Assembly (NCBI GenBank): GCA_905182175.1
Contig: CAJJAT010000005.1
Coordinates: 1 to 56,600, forward strand
DNA length: 56,600 nucleotides
Direction of reading: 5' to 3'
Source: Flavobacteriales bacterium UBA1494
GTDB lineage: Bacteria; Bacteroidota; Bacteroidia; Flavobacteriales_E; Vicingaceae
Shown: positions 1 to 55,678 of the stretch, one piece after another
Layout of the letters: every line of letters begins with the position of its first letter
Position numbering within the stretch: position 1 is the first letter of the stretch
Position numbers and translations under genes: made by a program
The notes under the pieces: model-generated
The model's database searches: none
Seen by the model: the letters and a program-made list of their open reading frames with translations, nothing else
What the model was told of the DNA's origin: nothing

Positions 1-318
1 GAAAATGAAAGCCAATTCTTCTGGTTCTTTAATTGCTGCTCTAAATCGCACAATAGACAGTGCTCCAACTAAACCTAAGGAAAGGGCAAGAGAAGATTTT
101 ACAATGGTGATAATGAGCATTGTTGTAAAAGCTAGAATCATAAAGTTGGCAGAGAAGTCTTTTCTGTTTGATAAACTTTTAGCTACTTTTTGATAGGTAA
201 TGCCCAACAACCAACAGAGAATGATAATGGTAACAGAACTAATTAAAAAGTCTGTTAGCGATATATTACTATTCTCAGTGATGAGAAATTTTTCGAAGAG
301 GTTCCACTTATTTTCCAT
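1..318 (-). CDS. DUF4956 membrane protein, second copy (N-terminal part; runs off window edge)
   Basis: The first 106 codons of a DUF4956 family membrane protein are seen; the rest lies left of the window. It starts at an ATG (316-318) giving MENKWNLFEKFL and aligns without gaps to the complete copy at 4826-5506. Only 6 of 318 bases differ, and five of these are synonymous; the one replacement is Thr for Ile in the first membrane segment. That pattern suggests a recent duplicate kept under selection. DUF4956 proteins are small multi-pass membrane proteins usually encoded next to VTC polyphosphate polymerase and CotH genes, as in the neighbouring cassette. This copy sits just downstream of the cotH stop (472) but has its own conserved -7 element, so it probably heads a second cassette. 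Molecular function is unknown. Confidence 0.9.
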   Translation of the reverse strand, partial: MENKWNLFEKFLITENSNISLTDFLISSVTIIILCWLLGITYQKVAKSLSNRKDFSANFMILAFTTMLIITIVKSSLALSLGLVGALSIVRFRAAIKEPEELAFIF

Positions 319-336
319 CTGTAAAAATTAAGAATT

Positions 337-344
337 CAAAGTTA
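337..344 (-). promoter_or_regulatory. Bacteroidota -7 element (TAACTTTG) of the second DUF4956 gene
   Basis: On the minus strand this reads TAACTTTG, a match to TAnnTTTG, 19 bases upstream of the ATG. The paralogous site at 5525-5532 reads TAAGTTTG: the only change is at a position the consensus leaves free, which supports function. No clear -33 element was found. Confidence 0.5.
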
Positions 345-471
345 ATGTTATTAAATAAACGTTAAGCGAATATTTAGAGCGAATATAGTAATAGAGCTCT
401 TTTAAGAATAAGACCTGGAGCAAGACTACAAATAGGTATAATACATGAGCAAGAAGTATTTATGATTTCAA

Positions 472-3462
472 TTAGTAGAACATTTCTGCAACCTTTTTCT
501 TTTTCCCTTCGATAACTTTCCCTTCCAGAATAACTTTTGATTTTTTTTCGATAACAAAGTCATTTTCGCAATTAATAAATGTTAGTCCTTCCGTCTTGAT
601 TAGTGCAGGGCCATATTCTGGTTTCTTTTGAAGTAGTACTAAACCAAACTTTGAGTCTTTAATTGAAACCTTAGTGAGATATACTTCCGATAAGTCCTTT
701 GAAGCAGTGCCAATGTTGCAATTCGTAATCTGAGTATTACTCACCCATAGGGTAGAGCCTTCGCCACCACTTATACCTTTATCTTTTATGTTCTGAATGT
801 TACAACTGTCTATTTTTATTTTGCTTGTACTAAAGTCGATTGCGTCATTTCCAACTCTATCAAAAGAAGTATTGATAAGCTTGCCTGTGCAATAGTCAGA
901 ATCAAAAGCATCAGCAAAAATATCTTCAAATTTGCAGTTTGCTACTAAAAAGTCTGTCTTGATTATATTAAGAGCGTCTTCGCAAGAATTCTTTTGGAAA
1001 GTACAATGTTGGATTTCAACCTCGGATTCGTAGAAATTAATGGCACCTGAGAGATTCCATCCTTCATAGCTAAAAGTATTTAGATTGCTAAATGTTACAT
1101 GTTGCACGAAGCTTTTCTGTTCCGCTTGTAAAACAGAGAGGCCGTTACCTGTTTTATCAGAAGAATGGACTAGAATAGGTCGTTCTTTTGAACCGTTAAA
1201 GTGAACTGCAGAAAAAGACAGAATGGAAGCTTCGTTTATTAAATCGACTGAAGATCCAGCTTCAAAGATTACTGTTTTTCCTGAAGGGATTATAACTTTA
1301 TGTCTCAGCGTTTTATTTCCAATTAATCGCAGTGTATCGTTCGCCTCAACAAATATTTGACTTGCATTAGAACTATCCGAGTGCAATAATTTTTGATACG
1401 GACTTGGTTTGATATTTTTGTTCCACAGTGTAAGCTCAGTTAGATGCTTTTTGTTAGAATCTAAATCTTCAAACTCAATATATGCCGATGATTCATAGTA
1501 AGGTAAATAAATTGTATCCTGACCTTGTATGTCTTTGAACTCTTCAATGACAACATCTTTTAAGCTAGCAATTGGTCTTTTTTTATTGTCTAATAGGCGT
1601 GTTAATTTAACTTTTCTATTGTTATAATTCTCTACATGTAATTTTGCTTTATTATCAACCTTAGAATAGTATGCGTTTAAAAAATATGGAAATAGCACTC
1701 GGTGATAATTTTTAGAATAGAGGACTTTGCTGTCTGTTAATTTAATTCGACTGAAAAAATCGTCATTTATTCTTTCTTTTAACTCAGGTAAATAGTTTCT
1801 AATAACTGTTGCATTATTTAATAAAAAGGAGCTATCTAATTTATAAGAAGGGAATTCCGATTTTATGATTGGAAGAAATTCGTCAATTTTTGCTTGATGT
1901 TTGACATAGAAGTCAGACACAAATATTGGGTCGCTATATTTTTCTAAATAATCGATGTACTGAAGAATTAATTTTTTTGAAGTAAATAAATAGGGGTACA
2001 AATTAGCCCAAGAGCTTAGAGGCTTATCTAATGCATAAGTAAGTGCTAACGGCTTAAAATCTTTTAATTTGTAATAGTCAGTATAATTGTCATAATTGAT
2101 AAATTCAAGCTTGCAATTTATAGGATTGTAATAAAACCTTAAGTTATGCCATACTGCACCATGTCTCCCCTGATGAAGGTCTGTTAGGGCTAAAAATTTC
2201 GCAAGCTTGTCTATGTCAAATATTTCATCTACAGGCGTTTCTCTCGTTTTGAATTGATAGAGCAGGCTATGAGCAATAAGGAACTGATTTTTTAGCTTTT
2301 CACTTTCAATAATCTTAGAAGTTCCAAAAGGGATTATTCTGCTCGTTTGATAATTGGGGTAGGTTTGCCAATCTTTAATTGGGTTCAATCCTTTATGCAT
2401 GGCCGTGTTTCGCCACATTGGGTTTTCATCAAACTTTACAATTGGACCTTCTCGCCGTAAATTACTTTCGACAAGCTGCTTCGTAAAGTGTTCTTCAATA
2501 GCATAGATTCCCCTACTTTCCTGATTGATGTACACTTGGCTGAAATCGTATCGAGTAGTTAGCAGGCCCTCTTGTCTCATCAGCTGATGCGACAAGTATT
2601 CATGTAAATGATTTCTACTTTTTGTTGTTTGTAAAGAAAATTGTCTCAGTCGATTAAATGTTTTCCCTTTTCTAACTTTAATTCTAAACGACCATTTTTT
2701 GCCCATTAGATGGTCTAACCAATCACCTTTAAACCTGGCCTTTATTGGTAAAACATCATTGCCATCAGAGAGTATTCCTTTGCTCCAAACTCCGCTACTA
2801 AAATGAACACCCTGCTCAAACGCTTCGGCTTTAAATTTTTCAAAACGAGCCATTTTCTTGTCGCTAAAGTTCAGCGACAAGAATTTGTTATTGGGATATT
2901 CATTGTATGTTTTCTGTTTGATTCGTTTAACTTCTAAATTGTCAAAGTAAGCGGAGTCTGATCTGGCAATGAAAGCATAAATAGATATTTGGTTTGTATG
3001 TGGAGGAATTTCAAATTTAATTTCGATTTTTTTCCAACCATTTTTACCATTTTCTACTGTTTTTGTAGTTGCTTCATAAAAGATTGTTGGATTGTTGGAT
3101 TGAATAACCAATGCACCAAGATTTTTTTTGTCTTTTCGCCAAATGGAGACTTTAAAGTATTCATTCAATTTCACGTCATTTAACTTCACGTTCAAACCAT
3201 ACTTTGCTCCCTTCGTTAATAGTATGCTCTCATCCTTGCTAAAAGCTTCCTTTTTAGTTCTAAGACCCCCAGTTTTAAATTCGGCCATAACGCCATTTGA
3301 AAAACGATGGAGATGGGTTTTGTTTGTTTTTGTAGTATCAGCGCATTCCACGGTGCAAGAAGCAATAGCGAAGGTACTCGCCTCCTTTTTAGCATACGTG
3401 CTGAAATTATCGCAGGCACTAAAAAACATTGCTAAACATAAAATTGAGACAATGGCTTTCAT
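472..3462 (-). CDS. CotH kinase family lipoprotein with N-terminal CBM-like domain and C-terminal beta-helix
   Basis: CotH kinase family protein, about 996 residues, predicted surface or periplasmic lipoprotein. The start at 3462 is preferred over an in-frame ATG at 3507 because it gives a short lipoprotein signal ending in lipobox FSAC (Cys17). Order of parts: lipid anchor; a beta-sandwich-like domain of about 150 residues with a CTVEC motif; the CotH domain (FKGDW, KWSFRIKV, YDFSQVYING-like, GIYAIEEHF, RREGPIVKFDE and later NLRFYYNP/FINYDN); and a C-terminal right-handed beta-helix with repeating INxSFDxxGNDAID-type turns. CotH proteins are protein kinase-like enzymes that phosphorylate Ser in spore coat proteins; the substrate here is unknown. 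It is the last gene of the DUF4956-VTC-lipoprotein-CotH cassette, and its N-terminal domain is paralogous to the protein encoded just upstream. Confidence 0.85.
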   Translation of the reverse strand: MKAIVSILCLAMFFSACDNFSTYAKKEASTFAIASCTVECADTTKTNKTHLHRFSNGVMAEFKTGGLRTKKEAFSKDESILLTKGAKYGLNVKLNDVKLNEYFKVSIWRKDKKNLGALVIQSNNPTIFYEATTKTVENGKNGWKKIEIKFEIPPHTNQISIYAFIARSDSAYFDNLEVKRIKQKTYNEYPNNKFLSLNFSDKKMARFEKFKAEAFEQGVHFSSGVWSKGILSDGNDVLPIKARFKGDWLDHLMGKKWSFRIKVRKGKTFNRLRQFSLQTTKSRNHLHEYLSHQLMRQEGLLTTRYDFSQVYINQESRGIYAIEEHFTKQLVESNLRREGPIVKFDENPMWRNTAMHKGLNPIKDWQTYPNYQTSRIIPFGTSKIIESEKLKNQFLIAHSLLYQFKTRETPVDEIFDIDKLAKFLALTDLHQGRHGAVWHNLRFYYNPINCKLEFINYDNYTDYYKLKDFKPLALTYALDKPLSSWANLYPYLFTSKKLILQYIDYLEKYSDPIFVSDFYVKHQAKIDEFLPIIKSEFPSYKLDSSFLLNNATVIRNYLPELKERINDDFFSRIKLTDSKVLYSKNYHRVLFPYFLNAYYSKVDNKAKLHVENYNNRKVKLTRLLDNKKRPIASLKDVVIEEFKDIQGQDTIYLPYYESSAYIEFEDLDSNKKHLTELTLWNKNIKPSPYQKLLHSDSSNASQIFVEANDTLRLIGNKTLRHKVIIPSGKTVIFEAGSSVDLINEASILSFSAVHFNGSKERPILVHSSDKTGNGLSVLQAEQKSFVQHVTFSNLNTFSYEGWNLSGAINFYESEVEIQHCTFQKNSCEDALNIIKTDFLVANCKFEDIFADAFDSDYCTGKLINTSFDRVGNDAIDFSTSKIKIDSCNIQNIKDKGISGGEGSTLWVSNTQITNCNIGTASKDLSEVYLTKVSIKDSKFGLVLLQKKPEYGPALIKTEGLTFINCENDFVIEKKSKVILEGKVIEGKKKKVAEMFY

Positions 3463-3518
3463 TGAGCGTTGGACTAATTTTATGTTTGGAGGTAAACGTT
3501 TGTGCACACTTCTTAGGT

Positions 3519-4097
3519 TTAATCCAATTTTATTTTTTCTAGTTCTAAATGATCAAAATATGCCAAGTTAGATGAGGCTATGTAGGAATAAACTTTAATG
3601 GCGTTGACACCTTTTGGAATTTCAAATTCTATTAAAATTTTTTCCCAACCATTTTCTGTTGTTTGTGTCACCTTTTTTTTAGCAGTGTACAGCTTTTTAG
3701 AATTTAGACTTTCAACAACTAAGGCAGCTAATTTCGATTCATCTTTTCGCCAAACAGAAACTCTATAACTTTCTTCTGCTTTTAGATTTTTGGCAGTTAG
3801 TGCAAGGCCGTATTTTTTCTTGGGTGTTAGCTGAATGCTCTTGTTTCCATCATAAAATTCTGTTGACACCTTTGTTCCGCCAATTTTTACAGAATATTCA
3901 TGGCCCTCTCCATTCGAATGTTTGTGAACTCCTTTTTGGGATAGAGTATCTGAGCACTCAACTGTGCAAACAATCATGGAATTATATTTTTTCCCAGGAG
4001 AATCTATAGTTTCTGCTTTTTTTTGACCATCTCCACAGGCGTTTAGACCAAATAAAATGTTGAAAATGAGTACTATATACAGTGTGTTTTTCATCAT
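3519..4097 (-). CDS. Small lipoprotein paralogous to the CotH N-terminal domain
   Basis: A 192-residue predicted lipoprotein (signal ends LNAC, Cys21; ATG at 4097 or 4094). The mature part aligns along its length with the N-terminal domain of the adjacent CotH protein: CTVECSDT versus CTVECADT, KKKYGLAL versus GAKYGLNV, YRVSVWRKDESKLAALVV versus FKVSIWRKDKKNLGALVI, and ENGWEKILIEFEIP versus KNGWKKIEIKFEIP. Both end in a segment like IASSNLAYFDHLELEKIK, typical of carbohydrate-binding-like beta-sandwich modules. No catalytic motif is seen. It lies 12 bases after the VTC gene and about 56 bases before cotH, in one operon. Likely a binding module or partner for the kinase; this is inference from homology and position. 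Confidence 0.8.
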   Translation of the reverse strand: MMKNTLYIVLIFNILFGLNACGDGQKKAETIDSPGKKYNSMIVCTVECSDTLSQKGVHKHSNGEGHEYSVKIGGTKVSTEFYDGNKSIQLTPKKKYGLALTAKNLKAEESYRVSVWRKDESKLAALVVESLNSKKLYTAKKKVTQTTENGWEKILIEFEIPKGVNAIKVYSYIASSNLAYFDHLELEKIKLD

Positions 4098-4109
4098 TGC
4101 TTTTTATAT

Positions 4110-4823
4110 TTATACCGCTAAATGTGGATTAAAAATTTCCACACCTCGGATGTATTTTGAGAATTTTCCGAGTCTAACGGGAAGGGCTGTTGTAATTTTT
4201 TTAACGCTTTTATCGTCCGCTATGTCATACTTCAATTCTAGAATAATTGTATTTTCAGGAAGTGCTTTCTCAAGGAATGAACCAGTTAATGACTTAACAT
4301 TGATGAACTTTAAATTGTAATCTAAGGTAAATCTGAAAAGCTTATCGAAAGATTGAAAATACTCTCTTTCGTAATTATTGAGAAGGGTTGGCACGTTTCT
4401 TTTGAGTTCAGATCTTACCATTTCAGGAAGTTCTGAGGCTTGGAATACTGAATTCCAATCTTGGCGGGAAAATCCTTCTTTTAGATGGAATGACTTTAAT
4501 GGGTATGACTTTTTCTTACCTGCAGCACCAAATTTTAATTTGATTTCTAATATTGGTTCCTGAATAAGCCCGAGTGTTTCGCCATACCAGCGCACTCTAA
4601 TTTTCGTTCTTTCACTTTTCCCAAAGTGGTTTTCATAGTAGCTTGTAAGGTTTGGAGTGTCAAAATAGATATTGTTCACTTTCCTTTTGTGGTAGATGGG
4701 CGAAAATATTCCTGTATTTATTTTAAGTAGCATTTTCGCGTAAGAGAGACTGCTGTTTTCTAAAACAAACTTTCGCTCGAATCGAGCAGTTTCCAACAAG
4801 GTATAGTTCGCAGGAGTCGACAT
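4110..4823 (-). CDS. VTC domain polyphosphate polymerase
   Basis: A 237-residue protein of the VTC/triphosphate-tunnel family. Visible motifs are ARFERKFVL (RxExK), NNIYFDTP, KIRVRWYGE, LEIKLK, the NYEREYF segment, LELKYD and KFSKYIRGVE; together they supply the Arg, Lys and Glu residues that line the phosphate tunnel. The family makes inorganic polyphosphate from NTP in eukaryotic VTC4; bacterial stand-alone forms are annotated as polyphosphate polymerase domain proteins. There is no signal peptide, so it is cytosolic, probably working at the membrane with DUF4956. Its ATG lies 2 bases after the DUF4956 stop, indicating tight coupling. Length is usual for bacterial members. Confidence 0.9.
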   Translation of the reverse strand: MSTPANYTLLETARFERKFVLENSSLSYAKMLLKINTGIFSPIYHKRKVNNIYFDTPNLTSYYENHFGKSERTKIRVRWYGETLGLIQEPILEIKLKFGAAGKKKSYPLKSFHLKEGFSRQDWNSVFQASELPEMVRSELKRNVPTLLNNYEREYFQSFDKLFRFTLDYNLKFINVKSLTGSFLEKALPENTIILELKYDIADDKSVKKITTALPVRLGKFSKYIRGVEIFNPHLAV

Positions 4824-4825
4824 AA

Positions 4826-5506
4826 TTAGTACGCCTTACTATCTAGAAAAGAAATGTTTGTGTTGGGGTAAGCTGCAAGGAGCTCATTTTTGAATACTTC
4901 TAAATTATTGCTTTTTTGAACGTTTGCAACGTACGCTATTTCTGAAGCGCCATCCACTTGGTCAAAACGTTTTAGAAGGGGCTGGCTGAAATGTTTTGCC
5001 ATCAATTCCCTGACCACATTCAGCTCTACTTTGTCTTGGTTTGAATTAATGCTGACAAAGATATTTTGACTTTCATTTTTTCCCTGAATAAAGAATCTAC
5101 CCCATAGAATTACCATGAATATACAAAATGCAGTAAGCACAATTGGGATCTGATTTGCTCCTAAACCCAATCCAATAGAGATAGAAAAGAAAATGAAAGC
5201 CAATTCTTCTGGTTCTTTAATTGCTGCTCTAAATCGCACAATAGACAGTGCTCCAACTAAACCTAAGGAAAGGGCAAGAGAAGATTTTACAATGGTGATA
5301 ATAAGCATTGTTGTAAAAGCAAGAATCATAAAGTTGGCAGAGAAGTCTTTTCTGTTTGACAAACTTTTAGCTACTTTTTGATAGGTAATGCCCAACAACC
5401 AACAGAGAATGATAATGATAACAGAACTAATTAAAAAGTCTGTTAGCGAGATATTACTATTCTCAGTGATGAGAAATTTTTCGAAAAGGTTCCACTTATT
5501 TTCCAT
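4826..5506 (-). CDS. DUF4956 membrane protein, complete copy
   Basis: A 226-residue DUF4956 protein starting MENKWNLFEKF. The reading frame could extend two codons to a TTG at 5512, but the ATG at 5506 is shared with the second copy. Hydrophobic segments lie at about residues 23-42, 60-95 and 105-145, giving roughly four membrane spans; the last 75 residues are soluble and mixed alpha/beta. The conserved GLVGALSIVRFRAAIKEPEE segment lies on a cytosolic loop. It heads the operon DUF4956-VTC-lipoprotein-CotH and has a -7 element at 5525-5532. The function is not established; linkage suggests a membrane partner of the polyphosphate polymerase. Confidence 0.88.
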   Translation of the reverse strand: MENKWNLFEKFLITENSNISLTDFLISSVIIIILCWLLGITYQKVAKSLSNRKDFSANFMILAFTTMLIITIVKSSLALSLGLVGALSIVRFRAAIKEPEELAFIFFSISIGLGLGANQIPIVLTAFCIFMVILWGRFFIQGKNESQNIFVSINSNQDKVELNVVRELMAKHFSQPLLKRFDQVDGASEIAYVANVQKSNNLEVFKNELLAAYPNTNISFLDSKAY

Positions 5507-5563
5507 GAACAAAAATTAAGGAAACAAACTTAATGTTATTAAATAAATGTTAAGCGAATATTA
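5189..5563. repeat. Segmental duplication, right copy (paired with 1-375)
   Basis: Gapless match to 1-318 (98% identity) followed by weaker similarity upstream of the start codon. The remaining 360 bases of this DUF4956 gene have no counterpart visible because the other copy leaves the window. Confidence 0.93.
5525..5532 (-). promoter_or_regulatory. Bacteroidota -7 element (TAAGTTTG) of the DUF4956-VTC-CotH operon
   Basis: The minus strand reads TAAGTTTG (TAnnTTTG), 19 bases before the ATG at 5506. The paralogous promoter at 337-344 keeps all six fixed positions. The PPase gene upstream ends at 5598, so the cassette may also receive read-through. Confidence 0.5.
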
Positions 5564-5597
5564 CTAGAGAATGTAAAATTTTGTCGTTGAAATATTC

Positions 5598-6197
5598 TTA
5601 GAATGACTGTTTGGCGGTAGAATAAATTTCTTCGGCTGTATTTTTGTCCTTATATCCACTGCTTACCATCATGCCTTTCCCCTTGTAATAGGTGAACCAA
5701 GTTTCAATAATAGTGCTAATTCCGGGGTATTTTTCATCTAATTCTTGCAAAGAGTTAACCCCATTTAGCGAACTATTTCTATTTATACCAATTAGTTTGT
5801 CATCCTGTTCGCCATTATCTTTGAGTTTAAGTACTCCAATTATTTTAGAATCTATTGTTTCGCCGATTTTTGCCGGCGGCCCAATAGATATAATATCTAG
5901 AGGATCTCCATCTCCACCTAATTCGTAAGGTAGCACTGTTTCTCGAATCATTCCATAGTTTGCAGGGTAACCGAGGTAATTAATCGTCCGAGGTTCCCCA
6001 TCAATCGAATCTCTTTCTATTTGGCTATTGGTTTTGTTGAGCTCGTATTTATCCACTGTTCCAGCAGGTATTTCGACTAACATTGTCACCCAAACTTCTC
6101 TGCTGTTAATTTTAGATTCTTCCGCCAACTTTGGTTGATTACAAGCAAACAATGAGGCAATTAAAAAAGAGGATAGTATAACTCGGAGTATTTTCAA
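5598..6197 (-). CDS. Family I inorganic pyrophosphatase, predicted lipoprotein
   Basis: Hydrolyses pyrophosphate to phosphate. Family I signatures are present: EIPAGTVDKYE (like EIPxGSxxKYE), YPANYGMI (YPxNYGxI) and the catalytic GDGDPLDII. Unusually there is a Cys-lipoprotein signal (about 17 hydrophobic residues ending LFAC) in front, so the enzyme is predicted to be exported and lipid-anchored, unlike the cytosolic housekeeping Ppa. No ATG fits that signal; a TTG at 6197 does. A longer reading frame reaches ATGs at 6275 and 6344, but a TAnnTTTG element at 6221-6228 lies between those and the signal, favouring the TTG. It is encoded just upstream of, and co-directional with, the polyphosphate cassette. 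Confidence 0.82.
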   Translation of the reverse strand: MKILRVILSSFLIASLFACNQPKLAEESKINSREVWVTMLVEIPAGTVDKYELNKTNSQIERDSIDGEPRTINYLGYPANYGMIRETVLPYELGGDGDPLDIISIGPPAKIGETIDSKIIGVLKLKDNGEQDDKLIGINRNSSLNGVNSLQELDEKYPGISTIIETWFTYYKGKGMMVSSGYKDKNTAEEIYSTAKQSF

Positions 6198-6220
6198 AAT
6201 AATGTTCTTAGGATAAGCAG

Positions 6221-6228
6221 CAAAAATA
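6221..6228 (-). promoter_or_regulatory. Candidate -7 element (TATTTTTG) for the lipoprotein PPase
   Basis: The minus strand reads TATTTTTG, 23 bases upstream of the proposed TTG start at 6197. It argues against translation starting at the upstream ATGs. No good -33 TTG was seen at the usual distance. Confidence 0.4.
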
Positions 6229-6326
6229 TAAAAACGATTCGTCGAAAAGTTGAAACCTTGTAAAATCTTCGTCATTATTACTTTTGGCGGGCAATTTGCG
6301 ATACCCGCATAGCAAATTGAAAATAT

Positions 6327-53014: not shown

Positions 53015-55066
53015 ATGGACGAATCTAAAAAAGACGCTGCTGAGAACGCAGAAGAAGTAAAACAAGTAGTTACTGAAGCAAAGACGGAAGTAAAAACTGA
53101 AAAAGTTGAAGCTCCTAAAGAGGAAAAAGCTGAGACTAAAAAACCAACCAGAACGAGAGCCAGAAAAAACGTTGCTGCTGTTCAATCAAAAAACGAAGAA
53201 CTCGAAGTTGAGGATAACACGGCAGAAGCTCCAGATGCTGAACCACCAAGAACTAGAGAAGAACGTAAAAAAGACCGTGAGGACTTTAGAAACGATTTCG
53301 ACTGGGATGCGATTGGAAAATACGACGATAAGTATTCTGATGAAGATCAGAAGCAAATGGAAGAGATGTACAATGAAACAATCAATTCTATATCTGAACA
53401 AGATGTAATTGATGGTGAAGTAGTAAGCATCACTCCTCGTGAAGTAGTTGTAAATATTGGTTACAAGTCTGATGGAATCATAACCAAATCTGAACTACGA
53501 TACAAAGAAGATTTAAAAATTGGCGATCAAGTTGAAGTTTTTATCGAAAGTCAAGAAGATAGAAATGGTCAACTAGTTCTTTCACATAGAAAGGCCCGCG
53601 CATTAAGAGCATGGGAAAGAGTAAATGATGCATTAGCTACCCAAGAAATCATCAAGGGTCACGTTAAGTGCAGAACTAAAGGTGGTTTAATTGTTGATGT
53701 ATTCGGTATTGAAGCATTTTTACCAGGTTCTCAAATTGATGTGAAGCCTATTAGAGATTACGATATTTATGTAGATAAAACAATGGAATTCAAAGTTGTT
53801 AAAATCAACAAAGAATTTAAAAACGTTGTAGTTTCTCACAAAGCATTAATTGAAGCAGAGTTAGAAGTTCAGAAAAAAGAAATTATTTCTCAATTAGAGA
53901 AAGGACAAGTACTTGAAGGTACTGTTAAGAACGTAACTTCTTACGGTGTATTTATTGACTTGGGTGGTGTTGATGGATTAGTTCACATTACAGATCTTTC
54001 ATGGGGTAGAGTTAATCACCCAGAAGAAGTGGTTACTTTAGATGAGAAAGTAAAAGTTGTAATCCTTGATTTTGATGATGACAAGAAGAGAATTGCTTTA
54101 GGTATGAAGCAGCTTGAAGGTCATCCATGGGATAAGCTAGACGACAAGCTACAAGTAGGAGATAAAGTAAAAGGTAAAGTAGTTGTTGTTGCTGATTATG
54201 GTGCGTTTGTTGAAATTCAGCCTGGTGTTGAAGGTTTAATTCACGTATCTGAAATCTCTTGGTCTAACCAATTGCAACCTGCTCAAGCTTTCTTCAAAGT
54301 GAATGACGAAGTAGAGGCGGAAATCTTAACTTTGGATAGAGAGGAAAGAAAAATGTCTCTTGGAGTGAAGCAATTGACTGCTGATCCATGGGAAGGTATT
54401 GAGTCTTTATTCCCAATAGAGTCTAAACAAAAAGGTAAAGTAACTAACATTTCAGATTTTGGTGTGTTCGTTGAGTTAGCTGACGGTGTAGATGGTTTAG
54501 TTCATATTTCAGACCTTTCTTGGCAAAAGAAAATCAATCATCCAAAAGAGGTTGTGTCTGTAGGAGAAGAAATGGAAGTTATAATTTTGGAAATCGACAA
54601 AGACAACAGAAGGTTGAGTTTAGGTTACAAGCAACTTGAGGAGAATCCTTGGGAGACTTTCGAAACTGTTTTTGAAATTGGATCTGTTCACAAAGGAACC
54701 ATTTCCGAAATTAACTCTAAAGGAGCTACCATTATTTTACCTTACGGTGTGGAAGCATTTGCTACGAAGCGTAATTTGATTAAGGAAAATGAAGCTGTTG
54801 GAGTGAAAGACGAAGAGTTAGATTTCAAAATCATGGAATTCAACAAGAATGCTAAGAAAATTGCAGTTTCTCACACTCAAATCCACAAGGACGAAGAGTA
54901 CGAAGAGAAAACAGTAAAAAGAGCAGCTGCCAGAGCTGATCATGCTGCAACTTCAAAAGCAATCAAGAGTATGAACAATAAGCAAGAGAAAACGACTCTT
55001 GGTGATTTGGACGCACTTGCGGCTCTTAAGAATGAATTAGAAGCAGGAGAGAAGAAGAAGAAGTAA
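53015..55066 (+). CDS. rpsA: 30S ribosomal protein S1
   Basis: A 683-residue S1 protein with an acidic/basic N-terminal extension of about 120 residues (poly Glu-Lys tracts) usual in Bacteroidota. Six S1 RNA-binding repeats follow; clear ones include VEGLIHVSEISW, VDGLVHITDLSW and VDGLVHISDLSWQKK with GVFIDLGG and GVFVELADG turns. The last 45 residues (ADHAATSKAIKSMNNKQEK, LGDLDALAALKNELEAGEKK) form a low-complexity helical tail, and it is this segment whose DNA recurs three times downstream. S1 binds mRNA and assists initiation; in this phylum Shine-Dalgarno sequences are rare, raising its importance. Confidence 0.96.
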   Translation: MDESKKDAAENAEEVKQVVTEAKTEVKTEKVEAPKEEKAETKKPTRTRARKNVAAVQSKNEELEVEDNTAEAPDAEPPRTREERKKDREDFRNDFDWDAIGKYDDKYSDEDQKQMEEMYNETINSISEQDVIDGEVVSITPREVVVNIGYKSDGIITKSELRYKEDLKIGDQVEVFIESQEDRNGQLVLSHRKARALRAWERVNDALATQEIIKGHVKCRTKGGLIVDVFGIEAFLPGSQIDVKPIRDYDIYVDKTMEFKVVKINKEFKNVVVSHKALIEAELEVQKKEIISQLEKGQVLEGTVKNVTSYGVFIDLGGVDGLVHITDLSWGRVNHPEEVVTLDEKVKVVILDFDDDKKRIALGMKQLEGHPWDKLDDKLQVGDKVKGKVVVVADYGAFVEIQPGVEGLIHVSEISWSNQLQPAQAFFKVNDEVEAEILTLDREERKMSLGVKQLTADPWEGIESLFPIESKQKGKVTNISDFGVFVELADGVDGLVHISDLSWQKKINHPKEVVSVGEEMEVIILEIDKDNRRLSLGYKQLEENPWETFETVFEIGSVHKGTISEINSKGATIILPYGVEAFATKRNLIKENEAVGVKDEELDFKIMEFNKNAKKIAVSHTQIHKDEEYEEKTVKRAAARADHAATSKAIKSMNNKQEKTTLGDLDALAALKNELEAGEKKKK

Positions 55067-55542: not shown

Positions 55543-55678
55543 TAGCAGAAGTTAAAAGAGCTGGTTACGCTGCAACTTTAAAAGCAATCAAGAGTATGAA
55601 TAATCCGTAACAGAAAATGACTCTTGATGATTTAGTTGCATTTGCGGCTTTTAAGAGTTAATATCAAAAAGAAATCGC
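55543..55678 (+). repeat. Decayed copy 2 of the rpsA 3' end
   Basis: The best preserved relic: a 21-base block AAAGCAATCAAGAGTATGAA plus the next codons is identical to rpsA apart from AAT for AAC. In one frame it reads VKRAGYAATLKAIKSMNN, a TAA, QKMTLDDLVAFAAFKS and TAA, matching rpsA residues from about 635 to the end. The N-terminal border starts near a VKRA segment, further upstream than copy 1. Confidence 0.88.

Follow-up and report, generated by a model that had tools for sequence, protein, structure and literature searches.

The left edge of contig C5 of the marine Flavobacteriales bacterium UBA1494 raises the question of why genes for a predicted polyphosphate polymerase, a membrane protein, CotH-like lipoproteins and an exported pyrophosphatase lie side by side, and whether, as an earlier note on this DNA had proposed, they form a duplicated envelope system for making and using polyphosphate. 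The stretch analysed here (the window) comprises 56,600 nucleotides (C5:1-56600), starting at base 1 of the contig, and belongs to an assembly of 45 contigs totalling 3.33 Mb; the relatives recovered by protein searches were Flavobacteriales MAGs, one of them Vicingaceae. Open reading frames and Pfam matches confirmed the full gene order described in that note, all of it on the minus strand. The order begins with an exported family I inorganic pyrophosphatase (PPase), a predicted lipoprotein (5598-6275; PF00719, E 8e-30; the ORF is open to 6344, with the likely ATG at 6275), followed by DUF4956 copy 1 (4826-5506; PF16316, E 1e-14), which combines membrane helices with a C-terminal beta-alpha-beta-beta-alpha-beta domain, and by a VTC (triphosphate tunnel) domain protein of 237 aa, predicted to be a cytoplasmic polyphosphate polymerase (4110-4823; PF09359, E 9e-29). 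A small lipoprotein gene (3519-4097; weak CBM_4_9 match) then precedes a 1011-aa ORF (472-3507) for CotH-like lipoprotein 1, made up of a CBM-like domain, a CotH-like core (PF08757, E 7e-12) and a right-handed beta-helix (PF13229, E 2e-7). Finally, a second DUF4956 gene runs off the contig edge, with its first 106 codons (1-318) inside the window. This second start lies within a 374-bp repeat (1-374 and 5189-5562) that is 96% identical overall and, as previously noted, 98% identical over the first 300 bp, with six codons differing between the shared parts of the two DUF4956 copies, five of them synonymously. The neighbours of the locus are housekeeping genes, with no glycan genes among them. 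Elsewhere in the window, two 100-bp repeats (54932-55031 and 55557-55656) are 84% identical, the former at the end of an ORF in which S1-like segments are repeated.

The genome's only other VTC and CotH matches are found right where contig C23 begins (L003:1-3224); that contig opens with the C-terminal 73 aa of another VTC protein (97.3% nucleotide identity to the first over 224 bp) and continues with a second CotH-like protein, CotH-2, of 998 aa. In the sister genomes G032 and G033, the C5 flank (on the adenosine deaminase side) and the C23 flank (on the hemN side) enclose a single PPase-DUF4956-VTC-CotH locus on one contig. Since the sister genomes hold both flanks around one locus, a join between C5 and C23 is strongly supported, as is the order adenosine deaminase - PPase - [DUF4956-1, VTC-1, lipoprotein, CotH-1] - [DUF4956-2 ... 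VTC-2, CotH-2] - hemN. About 0.85 kb, covering the remainder of DUF4956-2 and the 5' part of VTC-2, is absent from the assembly; the contig ends at a point where near-identity of the two copies is expected, which would make an assembler stop, and collapse of such a repeat would account for the missing stretch. An assembly artefact is unlikely, given that the copies differ, that CotH-1 and CotH-2 are distinct, and that the G032/G033 synteny bridges both contigs. The second VTC and CotH expected beyond the left edge are therefore both present; the description in the note needs one correction, as the second cassette lacks a separate lipoprotein gene.

The two cassettes do not share one history. 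CotH-1 and CotH-2 are 53% identical, and CotH-2 is 66-68% identical to the CotHs of the sister genomes, with which it groups (100/100, clade of four), while CotH-1 branches outside. At the same time, the DUF4956 and VTC genes are 97-98% identical in DNA between the two copies in the window genome, and copy 1 of each has 83-94% protein identity to the closer sister species. This pattern led us to reject a simple recent duplication of the whole cassette: CotH-2 clusters with the CotHs of sister species, and CotH-1 represents an older paralogue. The CotH genes are old paralogues, and the nearly identical DUF4956-VTC pair beside them looks to have been homogenised or re-copied recently. The small lipoprotein is missing from the sister-genome loci and is 41% identical to the CBM-like N-terminal domain of CotH-1, so that it is probably a partial copy of that domain; the genes for the two proteins also share a 40-nt repeat. 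In this genome the tandem expansion comprises an old second CotH and a free copy of the N-terminal domain, the second CotH now having its own, nearly identical DUF4956-VTC pair.

The VTC protein retains the catalytic residues of the tunnel. R76 and R78 align to R264 and R266 of yeast Vtc4, and K220-F-S222-K223 to the KFSK motif (K455-K458); E196 was matched to Vtc4 E426 from conservation and pattern only. The corresponding R264A/R266A/E426N mutant of Vtc4 features in the structure of the yeast complex, in which basic membrane residues are needed for translocation (PMC9911596). The VTC domain is the only one found in the 237-aa protein: no SPX domain, DUF202 domain or membrane helix was found in it, and a plasmid collection held no VTC relatives. 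The earlier note had treated polyphosphate synthesis by such domains as known. For bacterial VTC proteins, the literature searched offered predictions only, with no polyphosphate or transport assay of a DUF4956-VTC pair, and synthesis of polyphosphate from ATP by the window protein is accordingly treated here as an inference.

What lies next to VTC is highly constant, with DUF4956 adjoining it in 65 of the 69 Bacteroidia loci read in detail. Residues G82, L83, R91 and R93 of DUF4956 are invariant in 16 diverse sequences, and R91 and R93 lie where a predicted membrane helix ends in an AlphaFold 2 (AF2) model that is of low confidence (pLDDT 52, as for CotH-1, both from alignments of 4-5 related sequences) and that combines membrane helices with a ferredoxin-like beta-alpha-beta-beta-alpha-beta tail. 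This constant partnership suggests that the pair corresponds, in bacteria, to the polyphosphate synthase-channel of yeast. Like the yeast VTC complex (Vtc1/3/4), in which catalytic and membrane parts cooperate, the pair has the tunnel polymerase residues; unlike it, the membrane part is here a separate and unrelated-looking gene, DUF4956, and SPX and DUF202 were not found. A cytoplasmic VTC docked on DUF4956 would polymerise phosphate from ATP, and DUF4956 would let the chain leave the cytoplasm, either through it or alongside it, as the yeast complex passes its product into the vacuole.

The same proteins could be read as regulators, with VTC as a tunnel enzyme that acts as a triphosphatase or handles nucleotides, and DUF4956 as an MgtC-like regulator with an ACT-like domain, the set together controlling the synthesis of an envelope polymer instead of exporting polyphosphate. 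Tunnel enzymes do vary in activity (PMC8233210), and the tail of DUF4956 fits this idea, as does a weak, collinear match to the MgtC profile (hhalign probability 58.6, P 9.5e-5, over 187 columns), which agrees with the MgtC/ACT reading given in PMC12345266. Moreover, in Streptococcus intermedius, Pel increases when DUF4956 is lost and decreases when CotH is lost (PMC12345266). However, the window VTC is a strong match to the Pfam VTC family and has retained the Vtc4 pattern, KFSK included, and regulation would leave the association with exported phosphohydrolases, described below, unexplained; we consider this alternative unlikely.

If polyphosphate does leave the cytoplasm, the CotH-like lipoproteins are the candidates for handling it, and here the surface kinase of the earlier note did not hold up well. 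Both proteins match PF08757 (CotH-1 with 46 bits and CotH-2 with 34.9, against a cut-off of 23.8). Nevertheless, none of the seven aligned CotH-like proteins of the lineage has the catalytic Asp of the D-x4-N motif at the position that it takes in canonical CotH, and the canonical D-W-P-x-N-N is replaced by H-G-x-x-W-H-N (GAVWHN in the window); no Asp stands at either possible counterpart position, 450 or 452, in an alignment to the profile that is itself weak. N455 and D473, equivalent to the metal-binding N171 and D184 of PKA, and K271 are invariant in the lineage. The window proteins thus share with the Bacillus CotH spore-coat kinase the PF08757 match and the metal-binding N and D positions, but lack an equivalent of Asp228, whose loss inactivates B. 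subtilis CotH (PMC7821199), and differ from it as lipoproteins with CBM-like and beta-helix domains. A sequence search found no solved CotH structure, and Foldseek with the low-confidence CotH-1 model gave CBM-like matches for the N-terminal domain only and was uninformative on the kinase-like core. CotH in the window lineage is therefore probably non-canonical; the lineage has CotH-like proteins of this divergent kind only, and they may be non-kinases or may use another residue. In families f21 and f31, by comparison, a canonical CotH (176 bits in L071) directly follows VTC, and a second CotH-like beta-helix protein is found further along.

One could still imagine the window CotH as an active extracytoplasmic kinase for glycans or proteins, with exported polyphosphate as the donor in a compartment where ATP is absent. 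The linkage of a predicted polyphosphate exporter to CotH in distant phyla would fit, as would the conservation of K271, N455 and D473 and the CBM-like domain, but the catalytic Asp is missing from the aligned position throughout the lineage and known CotH uses ATP, which makes this reading quite improbable.

The exported PPase carries, besides PF00719, the metal-binding Asp motif, and the motifs DGDPLD, DxGExDDK and YYKG are kept among its homologues. A housekeeping role in phosphate metabolism was rejected for the locus set because the genome encodes PPK1 and a separate cytosolic-type PPase elsewhere (the latter on contig C28). The linkage of the PPase to DUF4956-VTC-CotH extends beyond this genome, being conserved in three genera of the family. 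Furthermore, an exported PPase or a secreted calcineurin-like phosphoesterase accompanies 17 of 20 CotH-linked VTC loci (the PPase in 7 and the phosphoesterase in 11, with both in one genus, L046) and none of 49 VTC loci without CotH, counts that share ancestry and are not phylogenetically independent. That two unrelated enzyme families occupy one slot lends some independent support to the linkage. Two of the three exceptions occur at contig ends: L003 represents the C23 half of the window locus, and in L042 the contig ends inside DUF4956, with a PPase in the right orientation at the end of another contig. The third, L082, lacks DUF4956 as well. The contrast between the two kinds of locus strengthens the case for an envelope polyphosphate system with an exported phosphohydrolase, and the recurrence of such exported enzymes beside CotH-linked VTC is a direct clue that the VTC product acts outside the cytoplasm. 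The secreted calcineurin-like family found near CotH-like proteins (L071-L079, L046, L084) has the usual D-x-H altered to G-H-x-H/Y, and its members fall partly below Pfam cut-offs.

Might the PPase nevertheless be a neighbour through inheritance alone, a common exported scavenging enzyme of the family with no functional link? It stands alone, not adjoining VTC, in genera g9 and g16, and the G031 copy has an in-frame stop (TAA; L112 / L039:11092-11490), indicating a pseudogene or a sequence error. Against this, the linkage is kept in three genera, loci of this kind in other families contain a different exported phosphohydrolase, and an exported PPase, linked or not, occurs in 16 of 26 VTC-positive genomes of the family and in none of the 20 VTC-negative ones (Fisher 6e-6, ancestry ignored). 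Within genus g16, G042 and G044 have both VTC and the exported PPase, and G043 and G045 have neither. We judge a purely inherited neighbourhood to be improbable.

At the level of the order, 26 of 46 genomes carry VTC genes; among the Bacteroidia sampled the figure is 144 of 295 genomes, or about half, and the literature searched offered no experimental function for these genes. Their loci fall into a DUF4956-VTC-CotH arrangement, as in the window, a VTC-DUF4956 arrangement that continues, in the inspected loci, with a DUF2490 protein of the outer-membrane-barrel type, and a small VTC-DUF4956 group (L065-L070). All CotH-linked VTCs cluster together in the tree (one change, versus 16.9 in shuffles; support 88/50, and present in 87% of bootstrap trees). 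The DUF2490 arrangement is commoner than the CotH-linked one, has a small lipoprotein gene upstream (L050, L085 and similar), and suggests an envelope-spanning path. Both VTC systems are present in two genomes of the window's genus, G033 and G034 (L053, L064); in the window genome the CotH-linked one stands alone. In f21 and f31, the trio of DUF4956, VTC and CotH belongs to polysaccharide clusters that also encode an O-antigen-ligase-type (Wzy_C) protein and, in one case, an MBOAT acyltransferase, and the exopolysaccharide connection of the trio is kept there.

That connection is described in Gram-positive bacteria, where DUF4956, a polyphosphate polymerase and CotH, in some cases with DUF4832, are accessory genes of Pel operons (PMC7112168; SIR_1592-1594, PMC12345266). 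The window has the same three families together, with a lipoprotein gene between VTC and CotH, and shares with the Pel accessory set a secreted CotH and a membrane-located DUF4956. It differs in the absence of PelG, in the extra exported phosphohydrolase, and in CotH-like proteins that have CBM and beta-helix domains and lack the catalytic Asp. Mutants of S. intermedius without the DUF4956 or the CotH gene differed in aggregation as well as in Pel level, and VTC deletion had no reported aggregation phenotype (PMC12345266). The authors of that 2025 study did not find this gene arrangement outside Pel loci. PelG (PF16933), the Pel gene tested, was absent from 15 of 15 Bacteroidia genomes carrying the set; a Pel cluster was rejected on this basis and, against the 2025 statement, the trio exists without Pel. 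Clostridium perfringens NELoc-2 (CP4_0460-0465, PMC2879425) also has two tandem VTC-DUF pairs with CotH, but has a single CotH, a resolvase between the pairs and no PPase listed. Next to its VTC genes, CP4_0461 and CP4_0464 are annotated as tubulin/FtsZ GTPases; by size and position they correspond to DUF4956, and are probably misannotated.

Taken as a whole, the locus may be an envelope polyphosphate module in which DUF4956-VTC synthesises and exports the polymer, the CotH-like proteins handle it at glycans and the PPase finishes its breakdown, a proposal that we regard as about evenly balanced between right and wrong. The CotH-like lipoproteins would act on polyphosphate, or hold it, on or near envelope glycans; this link to glycans is drawn from the CBM and beta-helix domains and from the occurrence of the same set in exopolysaccharide clusters elsewhere (PMC7112168, PMC12345266). 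The housekeeping surroundings of the window locus and the lack of a reported aggregation phenotype for the S. intermedius VTC deletion speak against the proposal. Outside the cytoplasm, the exported PPase would then hydrolyse pyrophosphate left by breakdown or transfer of the polymer.

Although the trio was already known as a Gram-positive Pel accessory, its presence in Bacteroidia without PelG, the CotH-linked VTC group and the phosphohydrolase partner are new; the combination of trio and exported phosphohydrolase seems nearly constant in Bacteroidia, and the partnership seems undescribed. A bolder version, which we hold to be quite improbable, is that polyphosphate serves as the energy-rich phosphate donor for an envelope free of ATP; CotH-like proteins would transfer phosphate to glycans at the surface or anchor it there, and the exported PPase or phosphoesterase would complete the cycle. 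If true, bacteria would possess a system for extracellular phosphorylation that runs on polyphosphate, and how CotH-type enzymes work without ATP would become a testable question.
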